A stretch of DNA of 52,059 bases. Source: Hysterium pulicare CBS 123377. Its lineage: Eukaryota > Ascomycota > Dothideomycetes > Hysteriales > Hysteriaceae. Position 1 is the stretch's first letter, and each line of letters begins with the position of its first letter. A program made the position numbers and the translations under genes. The notes under the pieces were generated by a model. It ran no database searches. It was not told where the DNA came from and saw only the letters and a list, made by a program, of their open reading frames with translations. Positions 7,325-52,059 of the stretch are shown piece after piece. The stretch spans positions 1 through 52,059 of the forward strand of contig AJFK01000164.1 of NCBI GenBank assembly GCA_000467715.1. Direction: 5' to 3'.

Positions 7325-7621
7325 AGGGATTGAGGGTTGGAAGAGGGTTTGGCGTTAATGGAAGGTCGGTGGAGTGTATAGGATATGTTGGGTTGGATTT
7401 GGAGTTGTCCTGTTCTTGCTGTAAGTGTGATTGGAGTTCACCTAGAATCCTATTTCTTTATACATGGCTGCGAAGTTTTGTCGAGGACATCGAGCTGTAC
7501 TATCATCCTGCCTATTATACTCTACCAATTCTACTCCATGGCCTGAAAATAACTTTATCTCTATGTCGTCCTTCTGTTCCTAAGTTCGACACTCAAGCAC
7601 GTGCTCCCCACCACGCCTCAT

Positions 7622-7710
7622 CACGTGCCTCTCAAATTCCATTTTCCTGTCTCCTCAAATATATATACACACTCTCCTCACATTCCCTCTTTTCTTTCTC
7701 CACACTATCT
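7622..7710 (+). promoter_or_regulatory. array A unit 1 promoter
   Basis: Two CACGTG boxes (7598 and 7622), TATATATA at 7660 and a C/T-rich tract ending in CACACTATC. The first downstream ATG is at 7769; it opens a 12-codon frame followed by GTAAGA, a possible donor. Confidence 0.6.
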
Positions 7711-8088
7711 TCCGGAACTTAGATCCAGGAGTGAGCCGATCTTGAAAACACAGGCGTTGGGAGACTATATGGTCTTGTTGTCCACTGTTTGCCGAACAAA
7801 TTGGTAAGAACGAATAAACCATGTGGGAGCGTGTCGGGTGTGGATCAAAAGATCGGCAGACTGATTCACGATGAATCGGGTGATGGGTCGTCAATCCAGT
7901 CAAGAGCGTATCGACCGCCATGATGTGAATGGGATTTTGGGGGTGATTGAAGAGTGTCTGGAAAGGTAGAGTGACTAATAGTGAAGGTCAGCGCCGAAAC
8001 AAGATGATCCAAGTCCCCAGTAGCTTGTGCCAAAGCTATACAAGGCTTTAAAGTCATCGAAAGGTTTCTTCAAGGGCTATAGTGAAAT

Positions 8089-8172
8089 CACGTGTCGCCA
8101 TCTTCCTAGATTCCTTCCCCTCCTCGCATATATAAACCTCCACCTCTCCCTTTTTCTCTCTACACAATCTTC
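8089..8172 (+). promoter_or_regulatory. array A unit 2 promoter
   Basis: CACGTG at 8089, TATATAAA at 8129 (40 bp apart), then a C/T-rich tract and TACACAATC at about 8161. This is the cleanest unit of the array. Confidence 0.65.
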
Positions 8173-8216
8173 TGGAGCTCAGCTCCGATCATCATAAGTG
8201 GCACCAGGTCGAACAC

Positions 8217-8396
8217 ATGGTCTTGCCGCCTGCCGGCTGTGGAACCAAATACCGCATCGTCAACTATTATGGGAAGCATTGCAGTGTGGACCAAAATCAC
8301 AGTCCAAATCGTTCATGGGTTCGATGTGGGGTTGCCAAAAGCAGCAACAAAAAGTACCATGGTGGGAGAGAGATCGGTGGGAATTCAAGAGAGTGA
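8217..8396 (+). CDS. candidate small ORF of array A unit 2
   Basis: First ATG after the unit 2 TATA box (88 bp downstream) and a 59-residue frame beginning MVLPPAGCGTKY, with four cysteines and a Trp-containing centre (SWVRCGVAK). No signal peptide and no recognised family. The ATG context matches those of units 1 and 4, but their frames diverge within a few codons, so coding status is doubtful. Confidence 0.25.
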   Translation: MVLPPAGCGTKYRIVNYYGKHCSVDQNHSPNRSWVRCGVAKSSNKKYHGGREIGGNSRE

Positions 8397-8529
8397 GATG
8401 CAGGATAAACGGCAGATTAAGTAATGGTGATGTTCAGCCTGACTGTATGGTGATAACGCAAATCTTCGGTACGCTCTACAAGAATACAACAGGACTCAGG
8501 GAGACTCCCGGGCTTCGTCTGCTACCTAG

Positions 8530-8620
8530 ACATGCTAGGTTTTACCTGCTCACCACTACTATCCCTCGAGTATATAAACACCTCCTCTCTCTTATTCTCT
8601 TTTTTCCTTCCTTACAATTC
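8530..8620 (+). promoter_or_regulatory. array A unit 3 promoter
   Basis: A decayed box (ACATGCTAGG) at about 8530 replaces CACGTG. TATATAAA at 8571 is followed by a long C/T tract ending CTTACAATTC. Confidence 0.55.
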
Positions 8621-8641
8621 TCCACCGACTATCATAAAACC

Positions 8642-8773
8642 ATGCATGAACTCTGTGGGGAGTTTGGCGGGTATAGAGTAAACATATACGCCCATATCCT
8701 CATATGGGTCTGGTGCGTGCTTATCAAAAACAGTGGCGAGAAGACCCGATGGTGGGACTGGCTTTGTGGGTGA
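8642..8773 (+). CDS. candidate small ORF of array A unit 3
   Basis: First ATG after the unit 3 TATA box. The 43-residue frame is Trp-rich with a hydrophobic centre (HILIWVWCVLI) and ends WWDWLCG. Its nucleotide sequence aligns loosely with unit 2 around the Trp codons, but the peptide is not clearly homologous. Coding status is uncertain. Confidence 0.22.
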   Translation: MHELCGEFGGYRVNIYAHILIWVWCVLIKNSGEKTRWWDWLCG

Positions 8774-8927
8774 GCAATCGGTGAGTATTCTTGGGAGACT
8801 AGGAGTCGAGAGTGGGGTGAGTGGTGAGGATGCTCGGCATCAAATCGTAATAAGTATCTGCAGGCTCAGGGAATGTCCGGCAAGTAGCCCGGACCTTATA
8901 ATCTTCATGTTGCATTGTAGAACTATC

Positions 8928-9022
8928 ATGTGCTCGCTATCCTGTACCAAGGTACTTTCCTATCTCCTAGATATATAAACCTCTCTACCCTCTCTCAATC
9001 TCGTCTTTTCTTCCATACAGCT
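8928..9022 (+). promoter_or_regulatory. array A unit 4 promoter
   Basis: CATGTG at 8928, TATATAAA at 8972, then a C/T tract ending in CATACAGCTC. The first ATG downstream is followed at once by TGA; the next (9078) is the shared ATGGTCTTG and opens only 17 codons. Confidence 0.6.
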
Positions 9023-9710
9023 CTCCGGCGTTCAACTGTAGATTAGGGCCGATTATCATATGTGATCAAACGACATTATGGTCTTGCGGTCTTGCTGTTG
9101 TGCAATCAAACCAAGCTCAACTTCAATATGAGTTTGGCGTGCGCTTGCCAAAAACACAGGTAGCGGGACATTATATGGGGGATGGGCCAACTTGGGTGGT
9201 TGATTGGGGGGTATATGCAGTGGCTTGGGAGCAGAGCGGAGTGGCCTATTGATTATGTTCAGCATTACAGTATGGTTATCGTCCATGGCTTCGGCCTTCG
9301 TCCGGCAAGTAAACCCCACGAATCTTCATATCTTCTATTCTCATCAGTAGTTTTCTAAGTATGACGGATGGGGTTTTGATTTGAGAGCAGTATTCTGGGG
9401 GCGTGTGTGGAGCGTGTCTCGTATTCAGAGTTGAAGGGTAAATCAGCTAATGATAATCTTCAGTATCAGGAAACGCTAACGGTCCAAGTCTTCAAGTTAT
9501 TGCGACGATTAGTCGAAGGAACTTTGAATAGTTCTTTCCGCAACTGCAACGCTATACCAGCGGCTTTGACATCAGCTTACAAAGGCAATTCAGACTCTGG
9601 GAAAGCCACCAAAGCCAGTTGCCATCCTTAAGGTTACTGGAAAGTATAAAGTGAACAGGTACCCTCTAAGCCTATAAAGCTAAGAGAGTGCAGTACGACG
9701 AATAATAAAA

Positions 9711-9805
9711 CCCATCGTGTCCTCTTCTCCTTGGATATATAAACACCTTCTCCTTCTCACAACCATCTTTTCCTTCTCATGGCCACCTCTTTTTTCCCTA
9801 CAGAA
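9711..9805 (+). promoter_or_regulatory. array A unit 5 promoter
   Basis: A decayed box (ATCGTGTCC) at about 9714, TATATAAA at 9736 and a C/T tract ending CCTACAG. The shared ATGGCATTG lies 90 bp past the TATA box at 9826. Confidence 0.55.
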
Positions 9806-10040
9806 AACTACTTTCTACAAGCCTCATGGCATTGTTGTCTTCTGCCTGTTTGCTGTGGAACCGTAAGCACGGATTTCCGAGCTGCATGCGGCAGTTGGTG
9901 ATAGATAGGATTAGATCGAGTATGGAAGGATAGAACAACTATTGATGATGTTTAGTATTAGAAGAGAATGATGATCTAATGCCTCTTCAAGATCACTCAT
10001 CGGAGTCGGCAGAAAATTCGTTCCACAGACACAGCGTTGT

Positions 10041-10145
10041 CACGTGTTGATTCCCCATCGTTGGTAGCCTTACTCCTTTTCTATATGCTACATAAGTATT
10101 CTCTCCCTCCGACACTTTCTTCTCATTTTCTCCTTTCACAAAACC
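10041..10145 (+). promoter_or_regulatory. array A unit 6 promoter
   Basis: CACGTG at 10041 and a decayed TATA (TATATGCTACATAAG) at 10082, followed by a C/T-rich tract ending TTTCACAAAACC. Confidence 0.5.
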
Positions 10146-10181
10146 ATTTTAGTTTGACCGCTGGGGACCAGCCAGAATATC

Positions 10182-10496
10182 ATGCAATGGTATATGGAGG
10201 CATGGTCCTGCTTCCAGCTTTCGCGAAACCAAAAAGAACCACCTGGAACATTATGTGGCGGAGCATCAAAGCCGGCACCATCACCGACTGGGGCTTTGCC
10301 GTCACATGTGGGATGGGTCTGTCAATTATGCAGAGGATGGTGTTTCATGGCTGCGGAGGGATTGGTAGATGAGGAAAGAATATGTTGGAAACTCCCTGCA
10401 ACAAGAGATAGACCTGTCGTGGGCCATGCTCTTGCGGTTTGCCTGTTTGTGACACCCACAATGAAGGCCAATGCTAGTAATATAGCTTTGGAATAG
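10182..10496 (+). CDS. candidate 104-residue ORF of array A unit 6
   Basis: The first ATG downstream of the unit 6 TATA-like box, 100 bp away, opens the longest first-ATG frame in array A. It begins MQWYMEAWSCF and is rich in Cys and Trp. A second overlapping frame starts at 10187 (61 residues, with ITDWGFAVTCGMG). Neither resembles a known family, and two equally open overlapping frames argue against firm coding status. Confidence 0.25.
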   Translation: MQWYMEAWSCFQLSRNQKEPPGTLCGGASKPAPSPTGALPSHVGWVCQLCRGWCFMAAEGLVDEERICWKLPATRDRPVVGHALAVCLFVTPTMKANASNIALE

Positions 10497-10717
10497 AAGC
10501 AATTTAAGGAACTGTTATAATGCGAGTAGCTCGTAGCTTCTAAGTCTGTGGGGACATGATGGTGATCTTTAGTGGCTGAGATGATGGTGATCTTCAGTGT
10601 CTGAGCGAAGGGATGCGTATCATTTTAGAAGACATCATCAGGAAGAAAAGCGTCATTCACTGGCAGTATCCCTCTCACACCCTCCGGTAATTTCGCCTTC
10701 TTTCTCATTATCTTCAT

Positions 10718-10815
10718 CACGTGTCTATCCAGTTCCCGGATTCTTTCTCCTGGTCAATATATAAACCTTTCTGACCTCTGCATTCTTCCATTCCTCATTA
10801 TCTCCTCATTCACCT
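10718..10815 (+). promoter_or_regulatory. array A unit 7 promoter
   Basis: CACGTG at 10718, TATATAAA at 10758 (40 bp apart), then CTCTGCATTCTTCC-type pyrimidine sequence. Confidence 0.6.
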
Positions 10816-10915
10816 AGCTCGAAGAGTTCTGCTTGACATAAAGCTGCGGTTTCTGCTAATGATATGTCATAGCCTTTGTGGTTGATATGGTTCAACAAAC
10901 CAATCAGTAGCCGAA

Positions 10916-10975
10916 CATGTGCTGCTGGCTTCGCCACTGCTGTTCTGGCCGATATATAAATCTACACCCGGTAAC
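10916..10975 (+). promoter_or_regulatory. array A unit 8 promoter (partial)
   Basis: CATGTG at 10916 and TATATAAA at 10953 keep the usual 37-bp spacing, but the C/T tract is missing. An ATGGCTTCGGTC resembling the shared ATG tract follows at 10981 and opens a 43-residue frame. The unit may have lost its initiator region. Confidence 0.4.
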
Positions 10976-11183
10976 GCTTCATGGCTTCGGTCTTCTGGCC
11001 GTTTACGAACGAACAGTCCCACTGCAGTCATGTGGGGAAGGGGTCTCAGGGAATAGAGTCAAGTTCCTCGGAGAGGTTTAGTAAGAGCTTCAGTGATGAA
11101 GATGATCGTTATTGAAATGGCATCATGGTGGCCATGACAGCATTGATCCTGTAGCCCTCCCTTAACTCTCTAGATCGTTCTAT

Positions 11184-11262
11184 CACGTGTCTCTCGCTCA
11201 CGGGCTTTTTTCTCGATCGGTATATAAGCCTCGTCCCTTCTTCCTCTTTTCCGTTACATTTT
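11184..11262 (+). promoter_or_regulatory. array A unit 9 promoter
   Basis: CACGTG at 11184, TATATAAG at 11221 (37 bp apart), then TCCCTTCTTCCTCTTTTCC and TTACATT. Confidence 0.6.
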
Positions 11263-11717
11263 CAAGGTATTCAATGGTCTCAATCCTAGGATAGAAGATT
11301 GTTTCCCGGAGCAGAACATGACTCTGTGCTCCTTTTTCTTCCAAATTTGAACAGGAGTTTGAGGACGTGAGAGCTCATCATGGGAGACCATGGTAAGCAT
11401 GTGGAGAACCTGGATGTTTGTGGCTCTTCGGTTTCCCACTTCTAAGGTCATCGTATTTCTCAATATGAATGATTTGATGTAAGCACGAAGAGATGCACGG
11501 ACGCATGTGTGGAGGACGCGATGATATGTTGACGCTTGATGCTGGTGAAGATTACCATCATAGAGCGGCGAAGGAAAGGATTTAATGGTCCAGACGAAGC
11601 TTGGAATCCCTTGGCTGTAATGAATGATGGTGCTAGTTATTTGAACCGCAGAGCTTCTAGTTGTCAATTTGAAGTTGCATACCTCGATCTTCTGAGGCCG
11701 TTCCATTACATGGCACC

Positions 11718-11812
11718 ACACATGACGGCGCTTAAGAACAGTTTCCTGGTTCTCGAATTTATAAACCTGGTTCCCTAGCTTTCTTTCGGTTTTCCTACTC
11801 ACAACACTTTCA
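11718..11812 (+). promoter_or_regulatory. array A unit 10 promoter
   Basis: A decayed box (CACATGACG) at about 11718, TTATAAAC at 11759 and a C/T tract ending CTCACAACAC. Confidence 0.45.
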
Positions 11813-12248
11813 ACTAAACCACAGAAACTGGTAAGTGGTCAACAACTGAAGAAATACCTGGCTATGTTGCTTTTGCTGAAGCTTACGTGGTGTGCCATAA
11901 CAAATTCCGATAGACTTCAACGCTATGCGGATCTGTCGGAGATTCCAATTCACATAAAAAAAGAAAAAGAATGATGGTTTCTGGTGGGACTGAAAGGTCC
12001 AAGGGTCAAAGGGGTTTGGGGTTAAGATAGATCCGGCTTGGATTTAATTCTAGGTTTTGTTGAGATAGTGAAGAAGAGTATCATCTGGTAATGAGGCATT
12101 TCTGAGCTCAAAATAAGCAAAACCACCGTCACCTCGAATGGTGAACGTCAGATCATTTCCGGGGTGTCTCTAGCCTTATCACAAGAGGGTTGGTCAGCAT
12201 GAAAGCAAACTCACTTTCGCCCCTTCACTCTTTGCCCTTTCTCCAACC

Positions 12249-12300
12249 TATTTAAACCCAGAGCACAATCCGCAGCTCCTTTTCTTCTCCATTACAACTA
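12249..12300 (+). promoter_or_regulatory. array A unit 11 promoter
   Basis: TATTTAAA at 12249 followed by a pyrimidine tract ending ATTACAAC. No CACGTG box is visible upstream. Confidence 0.4.
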
Positions 12301-12704
12301 CACACTGCGGCCGAAGGAACCAGCGGAAGCTTGACCACACATTTGGTATCGTGTCCAATCATGTCGTGGGACGCGGTACCAATTCATGAAAGCATCAGGA
12401 GCAAGACGATGTGATACCAAAAACAAGAACTGGAGCAAAACGAATGCGCCGTGGTTCTGGCTGCGCATCTCAATCACTCTGAATCATGACGAATCCATAG
12501 ATGGGGAAACTGGGAGACGGAGATCGAGGAGATATTGATATCGTCGTTTCCGAAGCGGTGATAGTGAAGATCGTTATTGACCAATGTTACATGTTTTCTC
12601 AACCTGGGCGTGGATAATCCGGAAAATGCGTTGGCACGTAGAGTTTCTGTGGGTCACCCGCCTGCTTATGTAATATTCCTTATATAGTCATCGATGATCC
12701 TGGA

Positions 12705-12752
12705 TATAAAAAGGTTCCCTCGCTCTTTCCTCTCCCTTCTTCCCCTACAGAT
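12705..12752 (+). promoter_or_regulatory. array A unit 12 promoter
   Basis: TATAAAAA at 12705, then a pyrimidine tract ending CCCTACAG. No CACGTG box is visible. Confidence 0.4.
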
Positions 12753-13011
12753 TCGGGATAATGGATCATATACTCTTTACCAGCTTTTCAATGTTGCGGG
12801 GTGTTCTATTCGGCGGGACTCATTGGGGCTATCCATCTCCATAATACGAACGGACTCCACTCTCATGGTGTGCACTGGCGACGGGCGTCTCTTCAAGTTC
12901 TAGACCAATCCGTTCAATGTGTCTCAGACCTGAAGTGGATGGAAGCCACATGGAAAATAAATATGTGGTAGAGTTTGCAAATGGGAGATCTGTGGAGGCG
13001 GGTAAGCTTGT

Positions 13012-13068
13012 CACGTGAGCTTATTCTGACTAACACGATTCAGCGTTAGCTCTATTGTAATATATAAA
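13012..13068 (+). promoter_or_regulatory. array A unit 13 promoter remnant
   Basis: CACGTG at 13012 and TATATAAA at 13061, but A-rich sequence replaces the C/T tract. It marks the edge of the array next to the 13.2-kb gene. Confidence 0.35.
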
Positions 13069-13240
13069 AAAATGTCAATTTAACGTCCGACCCGTTCTTA
13101 ATAGAATACGTAGACTATTTGATAAGCTAGCTATCTAGAGGAAAGTAAGAGTCAGCCGTGTGAAATACAAAAAAAAAAAGAAAATTGAAGAAATAAAACA
13201 TAATAAGAAAAAGATACAGAATCGCCAGTGGGGTCTATAC

Positions 13241-27894: not shown

Positions 27895-27992
27895 GGGCTC
27901 AGAAGAAGAGTTTGGTAAAGCCCAACCACGCGTAAGCGGTGATTATTTTCAAAGCTCTCGTTTATGGTTGATTTCGTTAACGGGCTCAGAAG
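27895..27992 (-). repeat. dispersed short element, 76 bp, truncated, with 11-bp flanking duplication
   Basis: GGGCTCAGAAG flanks the insert on both sides (27895-27905 and 27982-27992). The insert is a minus-strand copy of the element present at 30.1, 35.2 and 35.6 kb, sharing CACGCGTAAGCGG and the GCTCTC...TTTATGGTTGATTTC region. It lacks the first half of the longer copies. Confidence 0.8.
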
Positions 27993-30024: not shown

Positions 30025-30204
30025 AAAGACCGGAGGCAACCAGAACCAAAGAAACCAAACCAACGAGAACTCAACGCAAAAAATCAAAGCAACACCGTTA
30101 CATCATTCAATGAAATTAACCATAAATGAGAGCTTTAAATATAATCACCGCTTACGCGTGGTTGAGCTTAATTAAACTCTTTTTCAAAATAAAAGACCGG
30201 AGGC
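30025..30204 (+). repeat. dispersed short element, 154 bp, with 13-bp flanking duplication
   Basis: AAAGACCGGAGGC occurs at 30025-30037 and 30192-30204. The insert between them contains the full shared core (AACTCAACGC, CAACACCGTTACATCATTCA, GAGAGCTTTAAATATAATC, ACGCGTGGTTGAGCTTAAT) plus extra 5' sequence not present in the other copies. Confidence 0.85.
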
Positions 30205-33776: not shown

Positions 33777-34433
33777 TCATGGTTGCATCTGTGATGTGCC
33801 TCGACCATGCCTGCCCCAGGTTCTCCTCGCCATCATCGTGACGCCAGAAACGACTGTGTCGCAAATAAACCTCTTCTCCACCTCTTTCACCTCTTCCCAG
33901 GTCATTGGTTCCTCCGGCTTCAGCCCCATTTCTTTCATAAGAACGCCCTGAAGGACTGGAAAGTTGGCTTTGTCAACGTAATCCTCGAGATATACTAAAC
34001 CTTTATTCGCGAGTGCCTTCCCATCTGCACCCTTCTTATCTGCACCCTTCCCACCCCCCTTTGTACCCTTCCCACCTCCCTTTGCACCTCCCTTCCCACC
34101 TCCCTTTGCACCTCCCTTTGCACCCCCCTTTGCACCACCTTTCCTGCGAGTGGTAAGAGCGTAGCTATCATATGATGGAGTTATGTCATGTATAAACCGA
34201 TCCTTCAGTTCTTTGAACTCTATCTCTGTCAGTGGCTGTTTCGAATCCAGGTGCATCCCTTCGCGGAGATTATGATCCATGGGGTCGCCGGGAGTGATGT
34301 GGAGGTAATCTGTCACATTTATCGGGAATTTCAAGGATGACTTGAAGGTGGAGTCTGCCTCTGGTGGTGGCATGGGTAGGGCGAGAGTGAGAGTTGTAAG
34401 GAGGGCCGAGATATGGATCGAAAGGTATTGCAT
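33777..34433 (-). CDS. secreted protein with Gly-Gly-Lys/Ala repeat region
   Basis: A single-exon, 218-residue protein with an N-terminal signal peptide (MQYLSIHISALLTTLTLALP). The mature part starts with a conserved-looking domain (FPINVTDYLHITPGDPMDHNL, then DSKQPLTEIEFKELKDRFI). Residues about 97-135 are a repeat of KGGAKGG and KGGGKGG units. After the repeat comes a second domain that partly mirrors the first (MGLKPEEPMTWEEVKEVEKRFICDT). The two EFKELKDRFI/EEVKEVEKRFI segments suggest an internal duplication separated by the repeat. The basic repeat could bind polyanions or cell-wall polymers. A secreted effector role is possible but unproven. Confidence 0.7.
   Translation of the reverse strand: MQYLSIHISALLTTLTLALPMPPPEADSTFKSSLKFPINVTDYLHITPGDPMDHNLREGMHLDSKQPLTEIEFKELKDRFIHDITPSYDSYALTTRRKGGAKGGAKGGAKGGGKGGAKGGGKGTKGGGKGADKKGADGKALANKGLVYLEDYVDKANFPVLQGVLMKEMGLKPEEPMTWEEVKEVEKRFICDTVVSGVTMMARRTWGRHGRGTSQMQP
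34033..34142 (-). repeat. GGK-codon minisatellite inside the secreted protein
   Basis: Repeats of CCCTTTGCACCT/CCCTTCCCACCT-type 12-mers on the + strand encode GGAK/GGGK units on the minus strand, so copy number is likely variable between strains. Confidence 0.8.
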
Positions 34434-35142
34434 CGTGAAAGCGAAATGTAAGTCAGAGGTACAGTCGATTTGAGGTGCAAGGCCAGAGGGGAAATTGGCA
34501 AGCTATGTCGGGCTTAGTAGTTGGAAGCCCACAAATCTGCTAGGCGCACGAATGACCTCAAGATGAGATACCGACATCATCGACCTGTTCCAACTTAAGA
34601 TGGTAAAGGAGGTAGTGGATAATCCCTCAGATTACGTTTGAGCTCGGTACCTTGCATCAGATCCAATTCGCAGCCGGGAGTAGGACACAGCTTGACTATT
34701 TGGAATGAGTCTCATCTCTACCCTCAATCGTCGCTTCCACGCGGTAGCGCTCCCAACAGCAGTCTGCTGCGGCGCATTCATATCATTTCTGTGCTTCAAA
34801 AGATCTGCAGGCGGAGGTGGAATCAAACCGCCTGTTCTTGCACCGACCTACAGTGTCCATAAATTGGTCAACCTACAGCGAAAATATAATACATGACTCT
34901 GAAGATGTAGGTCAACTCAAGGGTTAATGGACATAGTATTGTAGATGTGGTATTCTGGTTCGGTTCCGGCTTATCAAGCTCAGCTTTACATCATCACTCC
35001 CCAGCTGAATATCGCTATGAGTATCATATTGACCAACACAGATGGAGGTTTCGGTGCATGCGCAAGCAGATGGCTTGCATCTGCGCAACCCATTTATAAG
35101 GCCGATATTATGTTATACTCGCGAAACTCTTCAAGTCTTCTC

Positions 35143-35289
35143 CAAGGTCCATCGGTGAGAACTCAACGCAAAATCAAAGCAACATCGTTACATCATTGAA
35201 TGAAATCAACAACTATAAATGAGAGCTTTAAATATAATCGCCGCTTGCGCGTGGTTGAGCTTAATCAAACTCTTCTTCAAGGTCCATCG
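35143..35289 (+). repeat. dispersed short element, 119 bp, with 14-bp flanking duplication
   Basis: CAAGGTCCATCGGT occurs at 35143-35156 and 35276-35289. The insert begins GAGAACTCAACGC and ends TCAAACTCTTCTT. Read with the flank, its ends give GTGAG...TTCTTCAAG, resembling splice sites. Confidence 0.85.
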
Positions 35290-35358
35290 GTATGTCTTCT
35301 TCAAAGCTCTCAACATCCGCTTTTCTCTTTTGTGGTTAGCTCCATAATCCTATTCCAG

Positions 35359-35682
35359 TCATATCTCTACGCTTTCCAATACATCGTAGAAATCGTCGTC
35401 GTCACTGCTGTCAAACCCAAATTGATTTTCGACTTCCGCATTCCCTCTGTTCAAACTTTCAACGAGTGCTTCAAACTGCTCCACGGTTTCGGAAGGGACG
35501 CCCGTAAACCAACAAGAACTCAACGCAAAATCAAAGCAACACCGTTACATCATTCAATGAAATCAACCATGAATGAGAGCTTTAAATATAATAACCACTT
35601 ACGCGTGGTTGAGCTTAACCGAACTCTTTTTCAGGGGACGCCCGATCGCGCAGCGAAATATTGCCGAGCGGTGACGAAACTA
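35359..35682 (-). pseudogene. coding-like acidic C-terminal fragment interrupted by an element
   Basis: Read on the minus strand and ignoring the 140-bp insertion (element plus one target copy), the frame gives FVTARQYFAARSGVPSETVE, then FEALVESLNRGNAEVE, then an acidic end with FDSSDDDDFYDVLE, and stops at 35359-35361. The open frame extends on both sides of the insertion and resumes in phase when one target copy is removed. I do not recognise the family, and no upstream exon was found. Confidence 0.4.
35495..35644 (+). repeat. dispersed short element, 130 bp, with 10-bp flanking duplication
   Basis: GGGACGCCCG occurs at 35495-35504 and 35635-35644. The insert begins TAAACCAACAAGAACTCAACGC and ends CGAACTCTTTTTCAG. 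It is about as similar to the 30.1-kb copy as to its close neighbour. Confidence 0.88.
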
Positions 35683-36107
35683 GTTGAAGTATTAGGATGC
35701 ATATTGATATATAAAAAGTGTAATGATGATACGTAATTACACCCTTTTATGATGATAATCATCGGCCTAGGATATTCAAACACGCACCACGACTACTCGT
35801 TGCGCGTGGCCATCTTCCAAAACACCCACCTGGCACAGACCATTCGGTTTCCTCGGTTGCTCAACGGCAGACACCTCTATGAATAATTGGATCGCCAGCC
35901 CAAAATATAATACCATCGAGAATGCCCTGTTTGGAGAGAAACATCTGTGCTTCTTTTGACATACTTTTGATTGTCGAAAGACTCTGACTGTGGTGCCTTT
36001 GAAGTAGGCCTGGATCTGCCTTTATAATCAACAATCATCGCAGCTGACAAATCGCACGAAGTGAGGAGCCACATGATATATCTATCCCCTCTTCTCCCCG
36101 CCATGGA

Positions 36108-36155
36108 TATAAACCCTTACTTCTCTCATTCCAAGGAGATCACACAGCAATTTCA
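36108..36155 (+). promoter_or_regulatory. array B unit 1 promoter
   Basis: TATAAACC at 36108 followed by CTTACTTCTCTCATTCC. Upstream, CACATGATAT stands where the CACGTG box would be. Confidence 0.5.
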
Positions 36156-36167
36156 AGCAATAGGCCG

Positions 36168-36368
36168 ATGTCTAGAGTATGCTTGGCAAAAAAGCAGCCC
36201 ATGGTAACGTACATGTGGTGTGTCTTGAGCGGCCGTGAGCATCAAACAACATCGATGCAACCCCATGGACTGTCTGTCCAGAAAAAGAGGTATCCTCGAG
36301 CTCATACCTGCTTGGCTGCTGTCCAAATCGCCGCCAGCAGCATCTGCATGGCGGGTTGTCGCGAGTAG
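36168..36368 (+). CDS. candidate small ORF of array B unit 1
   Basis: First ATG after the TATA box (60 bp). The 66-residue frame begins MSRVCLAKKQ and contains MWCVLSGREH and five cysteines in total. No signal peptide, no known family and no matching frame in neighbouring units. Confidence 0.22.
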   Translation: MSRVCLAKKQPMVTYMWCVLSGREHQTTSMQPHGLSVQKKRYPRAHTCLAAVQIAASSICMAGCRE

Positions 36369-36732
36369 AGCAAAACGAACTATCGAGACAATCATGGGGG
36401 GATGGTATCCAATAGAGTCTCAGGACTAAGGAAAGGTATATTTTTTGAGCTAGTGATGATAATGACTATCGTCTTACAATGGGTGATATCATCATCTGCA
36501 ATTTCCCAAAATTGACAGCAGATCCTTGACGTGCCTTAGGTTGCACATGTCTCCAACCCGACTCCACCATGAGTGAGACTTTTCCTTTGTTCTAGTTGCG
36601 CACTAGCCAGACAAATCCTCTGGAGCATTCAGTTGATTGCGATAAGATTCTTGATTGTCACTTCTTGTCGATGTTGTAGCGTCTTCAAGAAAAGAGGGGG
36701 AGATCTTATAGTTTCTCATGGAAAGGGGTAAT

Positions 36733-36840
36733 CACGTGCTTTTGATCTTGCCATGCACGTGCTCTAGAATTCCTTCTTCAAGTGAACCAATATAAAAGCA
36801 CCCTACTTCCCACTATAATGCTCCTCTCCACATCAAAAAA
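36733..36840 (+). promoter_or_regulatory. array B unit 2 promoter
   Basis: CACGTG at 36733 and 36756, TATAAAAG at 36791. An ATG at about 36818 opens a 35-codon frame. Confidence 0.6.
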
Positions 36841-37497
36841 CAGCTTCAGGGTGCAGGTCAAGATCGGCTACAAACCTATCGAAGCTTCCGAGCAAATGGA
36901 GCTTGGGAGAAGATACAGACATTAACTTATTGCGATTATACACATCGATGGTGTCTTGGATGGATCGGTCAGAGTCTGTAGTGCCGGTCTTATGATATCG
37001 GAGCTTCCCAAAAACAGTTGCTTGAAAACGCGATGTCGAAAGTCGTGCTGCGGGAGTCAAGGCGATGATGCCTCTAAAATGACTTGAAGTCGGAAGATGA
37101 ATGATGGGTCTCTATGGCATCTTGGTAGTGCACATCATCATCGGCACTCTCCGGTCTCTTCGGTGTGTAGGAGGTGGCACTGATCATAACTATGTTACGC
37201 GCTGCGCTTCCATGTTCCCTAGGCTTTTAAATTAATATTCAAGACCCCGTTGGTAGTTGTGGCTTTCTGTTCATAAGACCACATCTTGACGTATCGTGTA
37301 AAGGTTGATCTACAGCGCCGACATGGGCTCTAACTCAGATGGCTTCGGGAGACACACGCAGGACGACCATCAAAAAGTTGGACTAAAATGATATGATATC
37401 ACTTCTTGTCCGCAGTAATGATTCTGGAATTCTAGATCCAAGCAAAGCTTTATAGACGAGATGTGCGGATTTTTTATTCCGAGACAAAGGGTAGATA

Positions 37498-37575
37498 CAC
37501 GTGACATCCCAAATCCTCCACACGTGTTAAGGCTCATACCACAGATATAAAAGCCTCGCCCCGAACAGTTCTTTC
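37498..37575 (+). promoter_or_regulatory. array B unit 3 promoter
   Basis: CACGTG at 37498 and 37521, TATAAAAG at 37546, followed by CTTTCAACTCCACTGC. Confidence 0.6.
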
Positions 37576-37690
37576 AACTCCACTGCTGGAACACTTAAGC
37601 TCTAGATCCGATCTTGATCAAAGTACCACCAAGCTTAGCTGCGTGGTTGTACCGGAGTGACAGTTGCTACATCGTACGATTCTCTCCCAC

Positions 37691-38203
37691 ATGAAGAGTT
37701 CGGGATCACAAAGCGCATCCAACCTGGCACATGTTAAATACCATTTCAAAAGGACAAAATGCTTGTTTGGTCGCTTTTCAAATGATCAATTCCAATTCGT
37801 TCATGGTGGAGTTTCGGACTGGAACGGTATTGGAATGTGGAGAAGACTGAGGAGTAGGAGGATCGATCACAGTCCGGGGACGAGAAATGAAGATCGAGTT
37901 CATCTTCTCGTTTTGCCGATTCTCTCCATTAGCCCCAACTCTAGGTATCAAGCTAGGGCCAGAAGACTCCTACTTCTTTTCACCATTCACCCAATTCCAA
38001 AACCTTCCCATGGTGTTTATCTTTGGTGGCATTATCAACATTGTAAGCCACTACTAAGGAATTTTAGAGACCCCGAGAAGGCCATTGTCGACTCTTTTGC
38101 CGTTGGTCCTGTGCCACTTCCTTTTGCGGTGGTGGCATGTAAAAGAAGAAGAAGAGGAGCTTATATGTGGAATGAAGACGTAGCGAAGAAACGTGTTAGG
38201 TAA
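37691..38203 (+). CDS. candidate 170-residue ORF filling array B unit 3
   Basis: The longest ATG-started frame in the arrays starts 145 bp past the unit 3 TATA box and ends 7 bp before the next CACGTG. It begins MKSSGSQSASN and contains VSDWNGIGMWRRLRSRRID, VYLWWHYQH and a basic end (VACKRRRRGAYMWN). It has no signal peptide or known domain. Its Trp-rich middle distantly recalls the 41991 frame. It is either the best evidence that units encode protein, or a chance opening. Confidence 0.35.
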   Translation: MKSSGSQSASNLAHVKYHFKRTKCLFGRFSNDQFQFVHGGVSDWNGIGMWRRLRSRRIDHSPGTRNEDRVHLLVLPILSISPNSRYQARARRLLLLFTIHPIPKPSHGVYLWWHYQHCKPLLRNFRDPEKAIVDSFAVGPVPLPFAVVACKRRRRGAYMWNEDVAKKRVR

Positions 38204-38209
38204 TCCATT

Positions 38210-38275
38210 CACGTGCGGGAGTGAGGACTCAGCAGGATATAAGAACCTCCAGCTATCGGCTTCTGAAACTCATAC
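38210..38275 (+). promoter_or_regulatory. array B unit 4 promoter
   Basis: CACGTG at 38210, TATAAGAA at 38238. The ATG at 38323 (85 bp past the TATA box) opens 31 codons (MGSTMGCVLAIY...). Confidence 0.55.
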
Positions 38276-38985
38276 ATCTATTTGCTCAAGTGTTTTGGAT
38301 TTAGGTTATCAAAAAGACCGCGATGGGTTCTACCATGGGCTGTGTCTTGGCCATATACAACTTAAGTCGAGTCTTATGTTCGTCCTCTACCTACTGCTCA
38401 ATCAAAATGGAGAGCTGAGCGATGGTCTGAGCAGTATGGAGTGGTGGGTTGAACACCAAATACATACTATACAATCCTGCAGTTCTCTTACGGGAGAGCT
38501 GGCGTCTGGGTAAGCCGAATATTCATGTTTCCGTAAATGAATGAGAGAATTGTGAGGATGATCATCACTATCCTGTCTGAATAGGGAGCATCTAGAGCGA
38601 TTTTCTCCATACTCTTCATGTAGAATAGAGCTATAGAATGATCATCAACACAGCCGGATGAATCTCTTCACCACATCATCTCCCAGCGTTTGTCAGGCTC
38701 AACTCCGCCCCGCAAGTCCCATTGTTCTTCAGTGATTTGATGCTTGGAACACCACATTCTTCTCTTCGAGACGGGGTTTCAATCTACCGAGCGTATTCTA
38801 TTGGTTGGTTCTTGAAATTTAATCATGCAGAAGACAAAGCCTTACTCTTTGGCCATGCAAAAACTATAATCAAGGTCAAGGTTCGCATGAGTGTATCTTT
38901 GAAGCTGACGCCGAGACGATGTTTTTAAGACACGGTAGCTTGGGAGTTGGGCTTGGGGAGACGGCGAGTAGCTGAGAGCTCTATC

Positions 38986-39070
38986 CACGTGACAAAATTC
39001 CAAGTCTTTGGTATCGAAGCGTCCTTATAAAAATCCCTTCTCCTAGGTCAAAATTCTCTTTCGAGTCACA
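38986..39070 (+). promoter_or_regulatory. array B unit 5 promoter
   Basis: CACGTG at 38986, TTATAAAAA at 39025 (39 bp apart), then CCCTTCTCC and a leader reaching an ATG at 39083. Confidence 0.58.
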
Positions 39071-39082
39071 CACCTGCAAGAT

Positions 39083-39271
39083 ATGATCGCGGATGGAGAT
39101 TGCGGAGGTTCCGTCGATCTAAAAACGAAATCACGAAGCTTACATAGTCTGCTATGCCTACTGTTCAATCGAACTAAGCGAGAAATAAGCACGATGTTGG
39201 GAGGAGGTGGGAGGAGGTGGGTGGAATTTGCCACAAAAGTTGCAGAACACCAGCTCCATGGGGCTGCGTAG
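39083..39271 (+). CDS. candidate small ORF of array B unit 5
   Basis: 62-residue frame from the first ATG past the TATA box, with LHSLLCLLFNRTKREIST, a Gly-rich turn and WVEF...EHQLH. Unit 4 contains a loosely matching stretch (FVLYLLLNQNGELSDG, then WWVEHQIH) in a non-ATG frame. This is one of the few hints of peptide-level similarity between units. Confidence 0.28.
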   Translation: MIADGDCGGSVDLKTKSRSLHSLLCLLFNRTKREISTMLGGGGRRWVEFATKVAEHQLHGAA

Positions 39272-39732
39272 CTGGATCAACTTTGTCTAAGAGCGTCCCT
39301 TACTTTGGGAATATGGGAAGATGGCTCATGATGCCCAATCGCTTCTGCTGACGATCGAGTTCATCGATCGATAGTTTATATGATCAACTTCATCACCGGT
39401 CCGAACACCCAAGGGCAGCCTTCATCTCTTCTCGTGTCCGAACCCGATTCCAAATCCCACTCCCACATAATGGGATGGCCGATCGTATGAAAGATCCCTA
39501 GCTCAACAATACACCTTGCTTGCAACTCCTCCAGCCCAAGCACAGCATGTAATCGCGTTCTATGAGGATTTTGAAGTCCAGCCAGCGAGACCTTAGAAGC
39601 GCTGTATTGAAAGTATGATGAATCCAGTTAGGTCCATTGTGGTGAACCTGGAGAAAAGACCGCGACGAAGCATTTATATACACGATCCTCCTGAAAACGT
39701 GCCTGTGAGTAGCTCAGCCCTCCGGATACCTT

Positions 39733-39835
39733 CACGTGACGCGAAAGAGGGTACCACGTGCGCCAGAACCGCTCTACTTCAATATAAAATCCTCATCTTC
39801 GAGGCTCGAAAGACTTTCTCTTCACCTCACTGGAA
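39733..39835 (+). promoter_or_regulatory. array B unit 6 promoter
   Basis: CACGTG at 39733 and 39755, TATAAAAT at 39783, then CTTTCTCTTCACCTCAC. Closely related to units 7 and 8. Confidence 0.65.
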
Positions 39836-39951
39836 GGCTTAAGTCGCTAGTGGTGCTTAAATAAATTTCTAGACCATATCAAAGAATATGATGGAGTGTG
39901 GAGTCCGGCTTGAGACTCCTTACCAAAAAAATCAGACCGAGATTCGCGACC

Positions 39952-40182
39952 ATGGCTGATTCTCCTGCTCCAACCGGGGTTCGCCAAATAAACCTGGAGT
40001 GGGTCAATTCGTCGGATAGCTGTCCAGAAACTTCAATGCTGAAGCCCGATGCTGCCTTTGGGAGGCACCATAACCATGTAGAAACAAGATGGAGTGGCGT
40101 TTCTTTCGCTGAGCCATTCCGTCGTACTAATAATACTTATCTACAACTACTTATACGCCAAAGTAATATCTTTATCTCATAG
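39952..40182 (+). CDS. candidate small ORF of array B unit 6
   Basis: 76-residue frame beginning MADSPAPTGVRQINLEWV. An upstream ATG at 39888 opens a short competing frame (MMECGVRLETPYQ...) that does align with the unit 7 start. Coding status is unresolved. Confidence 0.22.
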   Translation: MADSPAPTGVRQINLEWVNSSDSCPETSMLKPDAAFGRHHNHVETRWSGVSFAEPFRRTNNTYLQLLIRQSNIFIS

Positions 40183-40552
40183 TGGTGAGTATAAGTGAGT
40201 AATAATGACGTTGTTGATTACCGCCGCACTTTTCAGTTAGTACCTTCCCCGTAGACTGGACCAAGGTTAAACTCCAGAGCTCTCGGCATGCAGGAGCGTC
40301 TTTTTCAAGATTGTTCTCACGAGCGCAGTATCGAGACTTCTTTTAGTTGTGTATAGCCACAGAATCCAAGAACCATCGCATGGAGTAACGCATTTATCTT
40401 GATTTCAGCAAGAGCTTTTGTCGCTCGAGGAATGCTCTGAGTGTAGTAGATGTTATCGGAAGAGAGTATGTATCTGTCAAAAATAGGGGAGGTTACCAAT
40501 CGGACACATGATTAGGCCCTCTACCTTCATGCCCTGAGGGCTCAGGGGAGAT

Positions 40553-40640
40553 CACGTGCTTCTGGGCCGTCCAAGGTTTGCTTCGATATAAAATCATCGT
40601 CTTCGAAGTTCGTTAGACTTTCTCTCCACTTGGAAGCTCA
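40553..40640 (+). promoter_or_regulatory. array B unit 7 promoter
   Basis: CACGTG at 40553, TATAAAAT at 40587, then CTTTCTCTCCACTTGG. The ATG at 40680 (93 bp) opens 32 codons beginning MDKWVERGNPLETYCQ. Confidence 0.65.
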
Positions 40641-40687
40641 AAAGTCTCCAGCGGTGCTTAGCCAGCAAAACAGACCGACATGGACAA

Positions 40688-40918
40688 ATGGGTGGAGCGT
40701 GGAAACCCACTCGAGACTTATTGCCAATTATTCGACAGTCGAGCGGTGAATGGCTGGTTCTTTCTGCCCCAAATCTGATCAATAAAGACCACATGTGGGG
40801 TGCTTTGGTTTCTGGGAATCGTATCCAAAACCCGTGGGAGACGAATCTATGTGGGCTTTTGGTGGTATTGTTTGGAGGCAAGAAGAAAGGGGTCCGTTCT
40901 TTTCACCAATGCTCATAG
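40688..40918 (+). CDS. candidate small ORF of array B unit 7
   Basis: 76-residue frame (MGGAWKPTRDLLPII...), the same length as the unit 6 candidate, with hydrophobic LCGLLVVLFGGKKKG near its end. It overlaps the 32-codon frame from 40680 in another phase. No known family. Confidence 0.22.
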   Translation: MGGAWKPTRDLLPIIRQSSGEWLVLSAPNLINKDHMWGALVSGNRIQNPWETNLCGLLVVLFGGKKKGVRSFHQCS

Positions 40919-41338
40919 TGCCTGACCACTAAACCAATAGCCTTGAGCATTATTACTTTCTTGTGATGTTTTGAGATAGCAAGTAACAGGAATGCTGAAC
41001 CTCGTCATCAGCATCATAGAGTCTATCATACCGCGTCGTTCTCATGCCCAACCTGCGATGAACCTCCAATTCCAACTCCAGAGCTCCCACATCGTGCGTT
41101 ATCGCGTTTGTTGGTTGACCCCAAACACAACATCATAAATCCGAAGAGGTGTTTTCTTGGATCCAGAGACCAGCTCCTATCATGGACGACTTCAGGAGTT
41201 GATAGTATAAGCTGAGGTGCTGTAATAGTGGTAGTGGGCATGCTTGAGACGAAGCAAGAAGACTTTATAAATGAAGACCTTCCAAACAATATGTCGGAGC
41301 CGAGTCTCCTGGCAAAAGTAAGCCGCATGTCTTCAACC

Positions 41339-41435
41339 CACGTGGTAGAGGAACCGCGTGACGGTGCACCGCAAGCCCTCCACATCAATATAAAATCCTC
41401 GCCTTCGAAACTCTTGACACTTCTTCTCACACCAC
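41339..41435 (+). promoter_or_regulatory. array B unit 8 promoter
   Basis: CACGTG at 41339, TATAAAAT at 41389, then CTTGACACTTCTTCTCAC. The ATG at 41485 lies 96 bp past the TATA box. Confidence 0.62.
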
Positions 41436-41484
41436 TGATTAGGTCAAGCTTTGGCGAAAGCTGAACCAAAGAAACAACGTTTCA

Positions 41485-41682
41485 ATGTACATGTGGTCGT
41501 GTGCGGAGGTCTGGGTTGAAACTCTGTCCAAACCCAATACCACGCTTCAACCATGCCTGTTGGGCTGATCCACAAACCTGGGAAACCGCCCGCCCATGTG
41601 GCTGTGCGCGGAGTTCTGGACTGAACTCTGTTCCAAACATGTATTCCCGTCCGACGCATGCCCGTTGGGGTTGATATAAAAT
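41485..41682 (+). repeat. internal tandem duplication of a micro-ORF in array B unit 8
   Basis: Two copies of an ~85-bp block (about 41491-41573 and 41598-41676) share ATGTGGxxGTGxGCGGAG, CTGTxCCAAAC and CATGCCxGTTGGG. Each opens a 25-27 codon frame: MWSCAEVWVETLSK... and MWLCAEFWTELCSK.... Confidence 0.7.
41675..41682 (+). promoter_or_regulatory. weak TATA-like box closing array B
   Basis: TATAAAAT directly after the second micro-ORF copy. No CACGTG and no pyrimidine tract, so it is probably a decayed or chance unit. Confidence 0.25.
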
Positions 41683-41990
41683 TGAAGAATGACTCGCGAT
41701 GGAGTAGAGTGGACATGTGGACTTCTGACCAAAGATATGGTTGGCACTGGGAAATGTGGGATTCGGAGAGGTTGGGAAGAACTGGAAGTACGACGCTTCT
41801 TCTGAGTATGTTTTGGAGAGTGCGATGATGCCTCTCACTGCGCTCTACTGTGCTCCCGATTATCAATACTCCCTACATCGCCTGCTCAGCATTGGGTCAT
41901 GATACCCATGGTTATCAATAACTTCTTGTTGATACTACGTTTCGCCCCTTCTTTAAGCATACTCTATGGGTCAACACCAAGATCCTCCAC

Positions 41991-42275
41991 ATGGACCAGC
42001 CTTGCCGAATGTTATGGTCTCCCGAGAACAGCAAATTTTCGCAACCCATGATTCTTGGAGACGGGAGAAAAGCGCCACACATGCATATGAGAGTAGGCTC
42101 GGTTATTGAAGCCCAGTGGCTTGATTTGTGGTATAGAAAAAGGCATGGCAGAGAAGGCGAGGTGGTATTTATAGATACGAAGCCGTGGCAAATGGCCGGA
42201 GATACCGTCGGCCCGGAAGTGACAGGGAGAAAAGTGATGTGGAGTAGAGATTTGAAGACACGGAGGGAAGGATAG
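41991..42275 (+). CDS. candidate 94-residue ORF past array B
   Basis: Frame beginning MDQPCRMLWSPENSK with a Trp-rich centre (QWLDLWYRKRHGREGEVV) and KPWQMAG. No TATA box in array position directly precedes it, no signal peptide and no known domain. It may be a unit body whose promoter has decayed. Confidence 0.28.
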   Translation: MDQPCRMLWSPENSKFSQPMILGDGRKAPHMHMRVGSVIEAQWLDLWYRKRHGREGEVVFIDTKPWQMAGDTVGPEVTGRKVMWSRDLKTRREG

Positions 42276-49807: not shown

Positions 49808-50062
49808 TGGGGTTTGGAGATGGTTAGGATTGAGAAGGTAGTATTATAAAATGGCGGTTTGTGTGTCTATATTTCTTCTGTTCTGGTTTCTGTCTATTGA
49901 ATGCATGGCGTTGTGGCATGGATCTACATTCTGGCTGAATCTTCCTGTAGATGTCTACGTGCACTGTAGTCCGCATATTCTCGATAATCTCGTTCATCTC
50001 GATCCCCTATGTTATCCGCACATCCTTACCTGACACACTTGCTCTCCTCCGGCGCTTTCCGA

Positions 50063-50168
50063 ACCGGATCGGATCATTACTCTCTCCGACTGATCTTCGA
50101 TTTCTTTGCTGTTGGTGCCATATAAACACCTCCTCCTCCCTTCCCCTCTTCGAATCCCCACAAGAGCA
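50063..50168 (+). promoter_or_regulatory. array C unit 1 promoter
   Basis: ACCGGATCGGATCATTACTC at 50063, TATAAACA at 50122, a C/T-rich tract and CCACAAGAGCATGG. Confidence 0.62.
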
Positions 50169-50211
50169 TGGGTGGCTCAACAGTTCCCAACAAAAAGCAC
50201 CGACTGAAGTC

Positions 50212-50343
50212 ATGGCTCGCCTGCGCTGGTTTCCAAAATTGGAAGACTTGGAGGACTATGCGGTTAACCAATACGAACGAGTTCCAGATGTGCTGTGGCC
50301 TTTGGGGGTGCGGAAGGGTATAAAGCCTATGTGTGCAAAATGA
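50212..50343 (+). CDS. candidate small ORF of array C unit 1
   Basis: 43-residue frame beginning MARLRWFPKLEDLEDY, 90 bp past the TATA box. The unit 2 frame begins similarly (MALRSWVPTDTES) but stops after 21 codons. An earlier ATG (50168) opens a different 51-codon frame. Weak coding evidence. Confidence 0.28.
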   Translation: MARLRWFPKLEDLEDYAVNQYERVPDVLWPLGVRKGIKPMCAK

Positions 50344-50579
50344 GCATGTGGTGTTGGTGGGGAATGTGGAACTTGAGAAGGAGAAATCGGGACCTGGGGA
50401 GTGAGATATGGGAGGTGGGAGGAATGATGGATATTGTTGTTATTATTAAGGAGTAATGAGGATTATCATCATCTTACCAGCGAGAGAATTGTTAACCGTT
50501 AAGATAGACTCTAGGCCCGAAGGGCCCCTTGGTTGAACTTTACCAATATCATCTTCCCTTCTCCGCAATCATCTTCCAG

Positions 50580-50690
50580 ACCGGATCAGATCATTACTCT
50601 TCCGAACTATATTCCTTCCTCCTTGCTACCCTTGAATATAAATATCTCCTCCTTCCTCCCCTTTTCAAATCTTCACAAGAGAATGGACGT
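50580..50690 (+). promoter_or_regulatory. array C unit 2 promoter
   Basis: ACCGGATCAGATCATTACTC at 50580, TATAAATA at 50637, CTCCTCCTTCCTCC and CTTCACAAGAGAATGG. Confidence 0.62.
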
Positions 50691-51033
50691 CTAGTGCTTT
50701 CAAAGAAGCCACGGCGTTATACTGATGGCTCTGCGGAGCTGGGTACCAACAGACACAGAATCAGCCGTCAATGTGGTCAGCCTCTGGTGATCCGCTCCCC
50801 GATGTGGTTGGGAGTTGCGAGCGGAGATGAGGATGCTAGACATCTTAGAACAACGAAGGAATGGAGATGGGGTGTTGAGAGCGGGAGTGATCATGGGAGT
50901 AAAGAGGTGAGGAATGATGGAGTTTATTGTTATAATCTTGGAGTAGGTGAGAATCATCATCTTTCTAACAGCAGTATGAATCCTGATGGCTTAGATAGAA
51001 CCTGGACGCCCCTTTTCTGCAATCGTCTTGCGG

Positions 51034-51135
51034 ACCGGATTATTATTTTCCCTGAGTCATTCCAGTATTTCTTTTGCGTTACCTGGATATAAATACTTCC
51101 TCCTCCTTCCCCTTCTTCGAACCTGCACAAAGACA
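51034..51135 (+). promoter_or_regulatory. array C unit 3 promoter
   Basis: ACCGGATTATTATTTTCC at 51034, TATAAATA at 51088, CTTCCTCCTCCTTCCCC and CTGCACAAAGACAATAG. Confidence 0.6.
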
Positions 51136-51787
51136 ATAGTGGCTCAACACTACTAAAAACAGTCAGTTCTGGGCGATCATGTGCTCGTCTGGGCTGGGCT
51201 CCAAAATCAGCATGGGAATGGACGAATGTGGTCGATTAGAATAGCCATTTCGTTGTTACGATGTGATGGGGGCTTGAGAGCGGTGGCGTGGTGTCAGACT
51301 TTATGTGACAGGAATGGTATGGGGGATTGGAGTTGGTGTTGGAGCGTGGTGGAGAGGTGTTGGAATGGGTGAGAATGGGGGAGATGATGGTGGGAATGAA
51401 GAGTTGAAGAAGTAGTGAACGGCTGTGTTGTCTCGAAGTACTGGATGTTAAGCTATTTGGGTAAGTGTGAAGTGCTGCGTCACAATGAGATTAGTGAGCG
51501 TCATCATTACACTACTAATTATTACTTGATGTCGGAGGAGGAAACGCAAAAACGTCCAATTACGCTCTCTCCACATCTAACCAATTCATCGTAAAGATGT
51601 GTGAGTACATATCATACATCAACACCATTTTGTCAGTCTCTATACTACGAACAGATAGGCACTCCAAATCTCAATATAATTCCTCGACACTGGCTTATCT
51701 CGGCCTAGTCTCTCTACACCGCTCTTATCCCTGAATCTCCGGCCAGCGTTATTTCCGATATTTCCAACCGCTTGATACTTTCCTCCG

Positions 51788-51835
51788 TATATATACCTCC
51801 CCTCCCTTCGCATCTTTGGCTCCACACAGAGAATA
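51788..51835 (+). promoter_or_regulatory. array C unit 4 promoter
   Basis: TATATATA at 51788 followed by CCTCCCCTCCCTTCGC and CCACACAGAGAATATGG. The ACCGGAT box is missing, and the TATA variant is closer to array A. Confidence 0.5.
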
Positions 51836-52059
51836 TGGATGTTCAATACCCTACGGGTTTTGCTTCACGATGAATCAAGGTTGTTTTGGTATGATCAATC
51901 ATAGTAGTTTATCTGCATAAATCAAGAGTGGTTCTTTCGGTTTTTACACCATGATTCATGTAGATATTATAATATTTCATCGTGAATAAGGGAACCCAGT
52001 CAGATCTTAAATTTAGTGGTTCAGTCTTAATATCATAATAAGTCATTATTCTCTAGTCT

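Follow-up and report, generated by a model that had tools for sequence, protein, structure and literature searches.

The noncoding systems closest to the locus considered here have been described in a nematode and in other fungi. The type-1 21U-RNA (PIWI-interacting RNA, or piRNA) mini-genes of Caenorhabditis elegans are clustered autonomous units, each of which combines a conserved upstream element with a unique body (PMC3597512). In fission yeast, meiRNA and nam1 are long noncoding RNAs bearing DSR (determinant of selective removal) regions with repeated short motifs that are bound by Mmi1 (PMC8293462), and the dicer-independent small interfering RNA (disiRNA) loci of Neurospora are sites of convergent transcription in gene-rich DNA (PMC3764098). 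This report concerns a stretch of 52,059 nucleotides from the ascomycete Hysterium pulicare CBS 123377 (contig AJFK01000164.1, assembly GCA_000467715.1), referred to as the window, which contains three arrays of short units (A, B, and C) separated by ordinary genes. The anatomy of these units, their repeated module, their genome-wide spread, and their lack of a coding signal are established by sequence statistics. With a probability that we place at about 0.45, the arrays represent an extensive family of short RNA polymerase II genes that encode no protein and carry a repeated bipartite RNA signal and a DNA operator.

Each unit is proposed to consist of an array-specific upstream box, a TATA box, a CT tract, an ACA start, a body of ~280 nt, and a palindromic operator, P, that would mark the 3' boundary and would be common to two convergent genes wherever an array is bidirectional. 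The body would diverge freely, save for copies of a single-stranded module (CCAAAA-N19/20-ATG followed by an A-poor stretch) spaced mostly 40-51 nt apart. The likeness to 21U-RNA mini-genes lies in the pairing of a conserved upstream element with a unique body in every unit; the element itself differs. 21U loci comprise a ~50-nt upstream motif and a 21-nt RNA, whereas the body here is ~280 nt long with a repeated bipartite module and, unlike 21U loci, is combined with a TATA/CT core, with upstream boxes that vary from array to array, and with a palindrome at its boundary. The units would resemble the DSR RNAs if, as proposed, they yield noncoding RNAs with a repeated short motif for an RNA-binding protein; however, the DSR motif is UNAAAC, which is not enriched here, and the DSR RNAs are single genes rather than a family of arrays. 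The disiRNA loci share a convergent geometry that is seen, in sequence terms, only in arrays of the B type. Their available description does not mention a repeated unit or module, and arrays A, C, and a further array on another contig (C506) are not convergent.

A mechanical scan for a TATA box followed by a pyrimidine-rich stretch recovers the units of all three arrays (7.6-13.1, ~35.7-42.3, and 50.0-52.06 kb), with the plus strand predominating. Both the arrays and the layout of TATA box, CT tract, and ACA thus stand as they were given in a preliminary description of this DNA. Twenty-three plus-strand TATA positions in the window were listed by hand; the automatic set kept 17 plus-strand and 4 minus-strand units. 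The full automatic set of 93 units was reduced to 81 (units with CACGTG or within the window were kept, and one duplicate TATA was removed), and then to 79 by dropping the window units 8052 (minus) and 12705 (plus). Within the window, CACGTG lies 18-45 nt 5' of a TATA box 12 times against 0.05 expected from shuffles, and the 12 matches correspond to 10 distinct TATA boxes, one on the minus strand. The box precedes 5 of 11 array A units and 7 of 8 plus-strand units of array B. Three array C units are preceded instead by CCGGATC or CCGGATT, and the fourth (51788) has no recognised box. In C506, where CACGTG is absent, TCACATG precedes four of eight units, and (G/A)ATGACATAA precedes four of five plus-strand units in another array, on contig C58. 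The single promoter design of the preliminary description therefore holds for the core and not for the upstream box, which differs among A/B, C, and the other arrays. At three positions elsewhere (C180:53286, C180:70040, and C208:40964), CACGTG is followed by TTATGTCA and then by TATATAAACCTC; TGACATAA is the reverse complement of the TTATGTCA box and is the box of array C58. This box, common to C58 and the CACGTG promoters of C180 and C208, suggests a second shared upstream factor.

The promoters are better kept than the rest of the units, as had been claimed: neighbouring promoter blocks align at 70-78%, and most bodies are unalignable. Even so, two features past the promoter are retained, contrary to the idea that nothing is conserved there. 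The first is the GATGAT/ATCATC-rich 3' part, which proves to be a real element, the palindrome P, close to TGATGAWNWTCATCA and ~300 bp past the TATA box. A motif search by expectation maximization (EM), seeded from frequent 8-mers in the 81 units, scores 252 for P, two shuffles giving 58 and 61, and the best sites lie mostly 200-450 nt past the TATA box (30-460 nt was searched). At score 10, the window holds 25 P sites in 14.5 kb of arrays and 6 in the 28 kb outside, a density difference of ~8-fold; the last unit of array A (TATA 12703) has no clear P. Base composition flips across P (64 units): the interval 49-60 bp ahead of it has a G fraction of 0.36 and a C fraction of 0.15, and the interval 60-71 bp beyond it has 0.18 and 0.30, respectively.

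P is favoured as a DNA element over a hairpin because its half-sites lack covariation: none is found in 75 sites, although the choice of sites with a symmetric profile may mute it. An RNA hairpin at P is for the same reason unsupported. The idea that the GATGAT part represents splice sites was dropped since P is palindromic and common to convergent units; GTATGT, GTAAGT, or GTGAGT occur 18 times sense and 10 times antisense. Box C/D small nucleolar RNA (snoRNA) was also considered, as TGATGA resembles box C, and was rejected with no Rfam match at the cut-offs given below. In our interpretation, P is a DNA operator that marks where the unit ends on its 3' side and presumably terminates or insulates transcription.

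The second retained feature is a module repeated within the body. Bodies are strand-asymmetric over the ~280 nt up to P (GGG 433 versus CCC 127; AAA 530 versus TTT 297), and cross-correlation among them favours a CAAAA-to-ATGG spacing of 24-25 nt (14 pairs). A two-block EM search returns CCAAAA-N19/20-ATG-G/T with a score of 222 sense, 116 antisense, and 71-85 in four shuffles. The refined module consists of an A-rich block (A peak ~16-25 nt 5' of the ATG), a neutral spacer, the ATG, and 11 positions (+3 to +13) with only 4-10% A. Cross-validated by cluster over 22.2 kb, it matches 86 times sense, 11 antisense, and 20 in shuffled sequence at 7 bits, and 47, 1, and 3 times at 9 bits; sense leads in 15 of 15 groups. 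At 5 bits, 47 of 79 units have two or more modules, and the commonest spacing from one module to the next is 40-51 nt. An amino/keto periodicity peaks at ~52-54 nt in A, B, and other clusters taken separately and is absent from control DNA; its phase-locking to the start site is weak. The bodies show no excess folding (mean z -0.21 in 78 bodies), nor do the A-rich and G/T-rich blocks pair (z 0.01 and -0.09). Because the orientation of the module mostly tracks the direction of transcription, RNA is the level at which it would be read.

The arrangement of the arrays differs from the preliminary description, in which every unit lay on the plus strand. GC skew is positive in all 11 bodies of the head-to-tail array A, where a minus-strand candidate at 8052 was flagged and then dropped as weak. 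Array B is bidirectional: its four minus-strand starts each have a CACGTG at most 75 bp away that also serves a plus-strand unit, and its skew changes sign, being positive in 7 of 7 arms from CACGTG to P and negative in 5 of 7 arms from P to CACGTG (some values are near zero, and the nine P centres used include two weak ones). Clusters elsewhere in the genome likewise contain divergent pairs with a common CACGTG and convergent pairs with a common GATGAT..ATCATC block.

The spread of the family was assessed in the whole genome (37.2 Mb in 596 contigs, the window lying on contig C133). The CACGTG-TATA pattern has 88 matches against 5 in a reversed control (nested matches included), the divergent form TATA-CACGTG-TATA is matched at 21 places (36 strand matches, compared with 3 in the control), and CACGTG-TATAAA-CCYY has 71 against 4, with some places counted under several gaps; these counts include nested or repeated matches, and ordinary genes will account for some of the total. 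Promoter positions pooled by hand from the three pattern scans (115 on 62 contigs, with a few promoters entered twice, in C102 and C240) form 49 pairs within 3 kb against 0.9 expected when the window contig is excluded; divergent partners are among these pairs. Perfect P occurs at 28 places against 1 in the control, and 10 of these have a promoter match no more than 5 kb away (0.6 expected). A strict P pattern finds 50 places in the genome and recognises just 4 of the 90 P sites that the known arrays contain. Among nine regions chosen by P (C58 also lies near a promoter match), C506 and C58 are clear arrays and C224 and C591 possible ones. C506, reached through perfect P alone, has eight plus-strand TATA/CT starts arranged head-to-tail, seven P sites, and 11 plus-strand module matches against 2 minus-strand; as it lacks CACGTG, counts based on that box miss arrays. 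The 17 units of these four contigs contain 23 sense and 5 antisense modules (L046, having no units, is outside this tally). By rough extrapolation, the genome may contain several hundred units. The earlier view of a dispersed family is thereby upheld, and its figure of ~25 units is superseded by clusters on other contigs. Lone P sites occur in L046, L048, L050, L051, and L052 (C380, C92, C355, C81, and C517), and P may have a wider role beyond the arrays.

Several observations weigh against a family of RNA-signal genes bounded by P. The P profile was trained partly on the window arrays, and its position was sought only within the interval given above. The skew flip after P is an average to which the CT tract of the next promoter and the opposite arm contribute, and in array A the skew past P only drops to about zero (-0.23 to 0.33, 11 gaps). 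Five of the nine P-chosen regions contain no array. The module seed was drawn from the whole data set, so that cross-validation was not blind to its discovery. The module is also degenerate: at 5 bits, 6 of 79 units have none and 26 have one. A hold-out set, 21 promoters from 13 loci, yields only 16 sense matches against 8 antisense; these are 13 of 30 CACGTG-TATA loci, some surely ordinary genes, and the cross-validation and the P-chosen regions came after this hold-out. A model trained outside the window gives array B 14 plus-strand and only 5 minus-strand matches, and C58 overall has 9 plus and 8 minus, which fits only if C58 is bidirectional. UNAAAC, the fungal sponge motif, occurs 21 times in the bodies against 26.3 expected.

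Among alternative explanations, the units may be small-RNA mini-genes whose bodies yield unique guide sets (21U-RNA-like or disiRNA-like), with convergent arms making double-stranded RNA. A conserved promoter with unique bodies follows the logic of 21U loci (PMC3597512), and both the convergent pairs of B-type arrays and the 24-25-nt spacing within the module fit this idea. However, the head-to-tail arrays A, C, and C506 have no convergent partners, the bodies show no fold, and a ~280-nt unit with modules repeated inside it differs from a 21-nt cassette; small-RNA precursors seem unlikely. Fungi are not known to have PIWI.

Serial early cleavage or termination is more doubtful. Poly(A) sites have a GU-rich downstream element, and the A-rich block, ~20-nt interval, and G/U-rich stretch of the module are poly(A)-site-like in base profile (the A peak before the ATG and the A-poor positions after it); the RNA would be disposable, its transcription or chromatin effect would matter, and P, where the GC skew of the body stops, would be the last stop. 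Yet the ATG is strictly kept (94-99% per base, in a model seeded with ATG), which is unexpected for a cleavage site, and AATAAA is scarce in the bodies (6 sense and 0 antisense in 22 kb).

Translation from the conserved ATGs, yielding fast-evolving micropeptides, is less probable still. The preliminary description, which assigned each unit an ATG and a short frame, left the choice between noncoding RNA and such peptides open. No triplet of the module is better kept than the ATG, which is followed by an A-free run of median 9 nt (mean 2.9 nt after other ATGs), making early stops rare, and codon scores of the longest sense open reading frames (ORFs) average 0.89 (2.29 in genes, -0.04 in gene frame +1), a value uncorrected for the choice of the longest ORF. 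Longest sense ORFs (median 41 aa in 82 units) exceed those of base-shuffled sequence (32 aa), but antisense ORFs are as long (44 aa). The period-3 ratio of the bodies is 1.16 against 3.19 in genes, no strong purine stands at -3, and the median distance from the module ATG to the first in-frame stop is similar whichever frame is read (30, 25, and 29 nt). Because the stops show no frame preference, the module ATG does not appear to be read as a start codon, and micro-ORFs at this position were rejected. No homologue was found for a 95-aa ORF or for an open stretch of 180 aa, the two searched, and 10 ORFs match no Pfam family above cut-off. Of the two products first considered, noncoding RNA is thus retained and micropeptides are not the likely one; the ATG belongs to a repeated module with no kept frame.

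Decayed satellite or transposon pieces with a chance promoter are very improbable: the tandem layout, dispersed copies, and degenerate periodic body suit them, but the longest match above 85% among 93 unit extracts (neighbour overlaps excepted) is 106 bp at 89%, conservation is highest in the box, the TATA, the module, and P, repeat-induced point mutation (RIP) indices are ordinary, and no tandem repeat of 45-54 bp is called in the arrays. That 106-bp match joins L034 (~4198-4301) and L040 (~5433-5538) on different contigs and suggests occasional copying between clusters. RIP-driven divergence was rejected on the same indices. A 601-bp query matches only itself in the genome, and neither this query nor unit-against-unit comparison finds the near-identical dispersed copies expected of transposons or miniature inverted-repeat elements. 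Rfam gives no match for arrays A and B up to E = 5 and none in the whole window, array C included, at gathering cut-offs. The diverged units, the self-only query, and the negative Rfam and RIP results all speak against fragments of a known transposon, an outcome for which the preliminary description had allowed. No transposon-like signature is seen, terminal repeats not having been specifically sought, and a tRNA finder detects nothing in the window. One 25-bp, two-copy tandem repeat lies at 10556-10605.

The noncoding gene family is accordingly the reading developed here. We infer that the units are transcribed and that a protein reads the module as RNA. What is kept, namely a start and a boundary together with an unstructured motif that recurs and is orientation-bound, is as expected of an RNA with many sites for one protein. 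Each transcript would most likely present a single RNA-binding protein with a series of sites for docking or processing, acting as a decoy, scaffold, or elimination RNA on the meiRNA model of fission yeast, and separate arrays would respond to separate upstream factors. No such family is described among the literature matches listed. With a chance somewhat short of even, the arrays constitute a new class of fungal noncoding RNA genes with hundreds of units, per-array factors, one core promoter, one palindromic 3' operator, a bipartite CCAAAA-N19/20-AUG-A-poor signal every 40-50 nt, and a dedicated protein of the lineage.

Table 1. Positions of array features in the 52,059-nucleotide window.
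Feature	Position	Strand	Remarks
Array A	7595..13050	+	11 head-to-tail units, period ~450 bp
Array A TATA boxes	7660, 8129, 8571, 8972, 9736, 10086, 10758, 11221, 11758, 12249, 12703	+	
CACGTG box of unit 7660	7622..7627		motif match
Other array A CACGTG boxes	8089, 10041, 10718, 11184		before units 8129, 10086, 10758, 11221
Example module, unit 8129	8285..8335	+	CCAAAA...ATG (8315), A-poor stretch; refound by model trained without the window
P after unit 8129	8423..8441		palindrome profile
Array A P centres	8432, 9257, 9458, 9950, 10564, 10592, 11101, 11553, 12076, 12569		score at least 12
Weaker array A P	near 7986 and 8832		
HET-domain protein gene			protein domain match
Array B	35700..42250	both	CACGTG (E) and P alternating, ~380 bp steps
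Array B plus TATA boxes	36107, 36789, 37546, 38237, 39025, 39783, 40588, 41389	+	
Array B minus TATA/CT starts	36710, 38165, 39680, 41269	-	further candidate 42173 without CACGTG
Two CACGTG boxes, array B	36733..36761		between TATA 36710(-) and 36791(+)
Further array B CACGTG boxes	37498/37521, 38210, 38986, 39733/39755, 40553, 41339		
Example module, array B	36180..36236	+	ATG 36213; others 38335, 40793, 40849, 41596, 41658
P in array B	38551..38569		score 17.7
Other array B P centres	35757, 36461, 37133, 39388, 40213, 41000		weak near 37886, 41824
Minus-strand unit, array B	41000..41269	-	TATA 41269(-) to P 41000, module ATG 41136(-)
Array C	50040..52059	+	4 head-to-tail units
Array C TATA boxes	50121, 50637, 51088, 51788	+	unit 51788 may extend beyond the window
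Array C boxes			CCGGATC(G/A)GATCATTACTCT before units 50121, 50637; CCGGATTATTATTTTCCCT before 51088
P of unit 50121, array C	50455..50473		score 19.0
Other array C P	50922, 50955, 51499		

Also encoded is a YVC1-like channel; its top named relatives come from Mytilinidion (78%), Lophium, and Lepidopterella, and together with the HET-domain protein it assigns the genome to the Dothideomycetes. An ORF on the minus strand between the arrays (33777-34502) contains a KGGAKGG-type glycine/lysine repeat and has no Pfam match. A short dispersed repeat of ~125 bp is found at 27902-27978, 30057-30187, 35157-35282, and 35506-35636; the copies are 86-92% identical pairwise, one is short and inverted, and the last lie directly 5' of array B.

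If transcribed, the units would form a very large noncoding RNA gene family in a fungus, one that escapes annotation, since it retains neither proteins nor sequence that can be aligned. The family would be a clear case of genes in which only the signals are conserved, and its RNA motif and DNA operator would provide handles for finding the proteins that bind them. The differing upstream boxes suggest that array-by-array regulation is laid over one core design.

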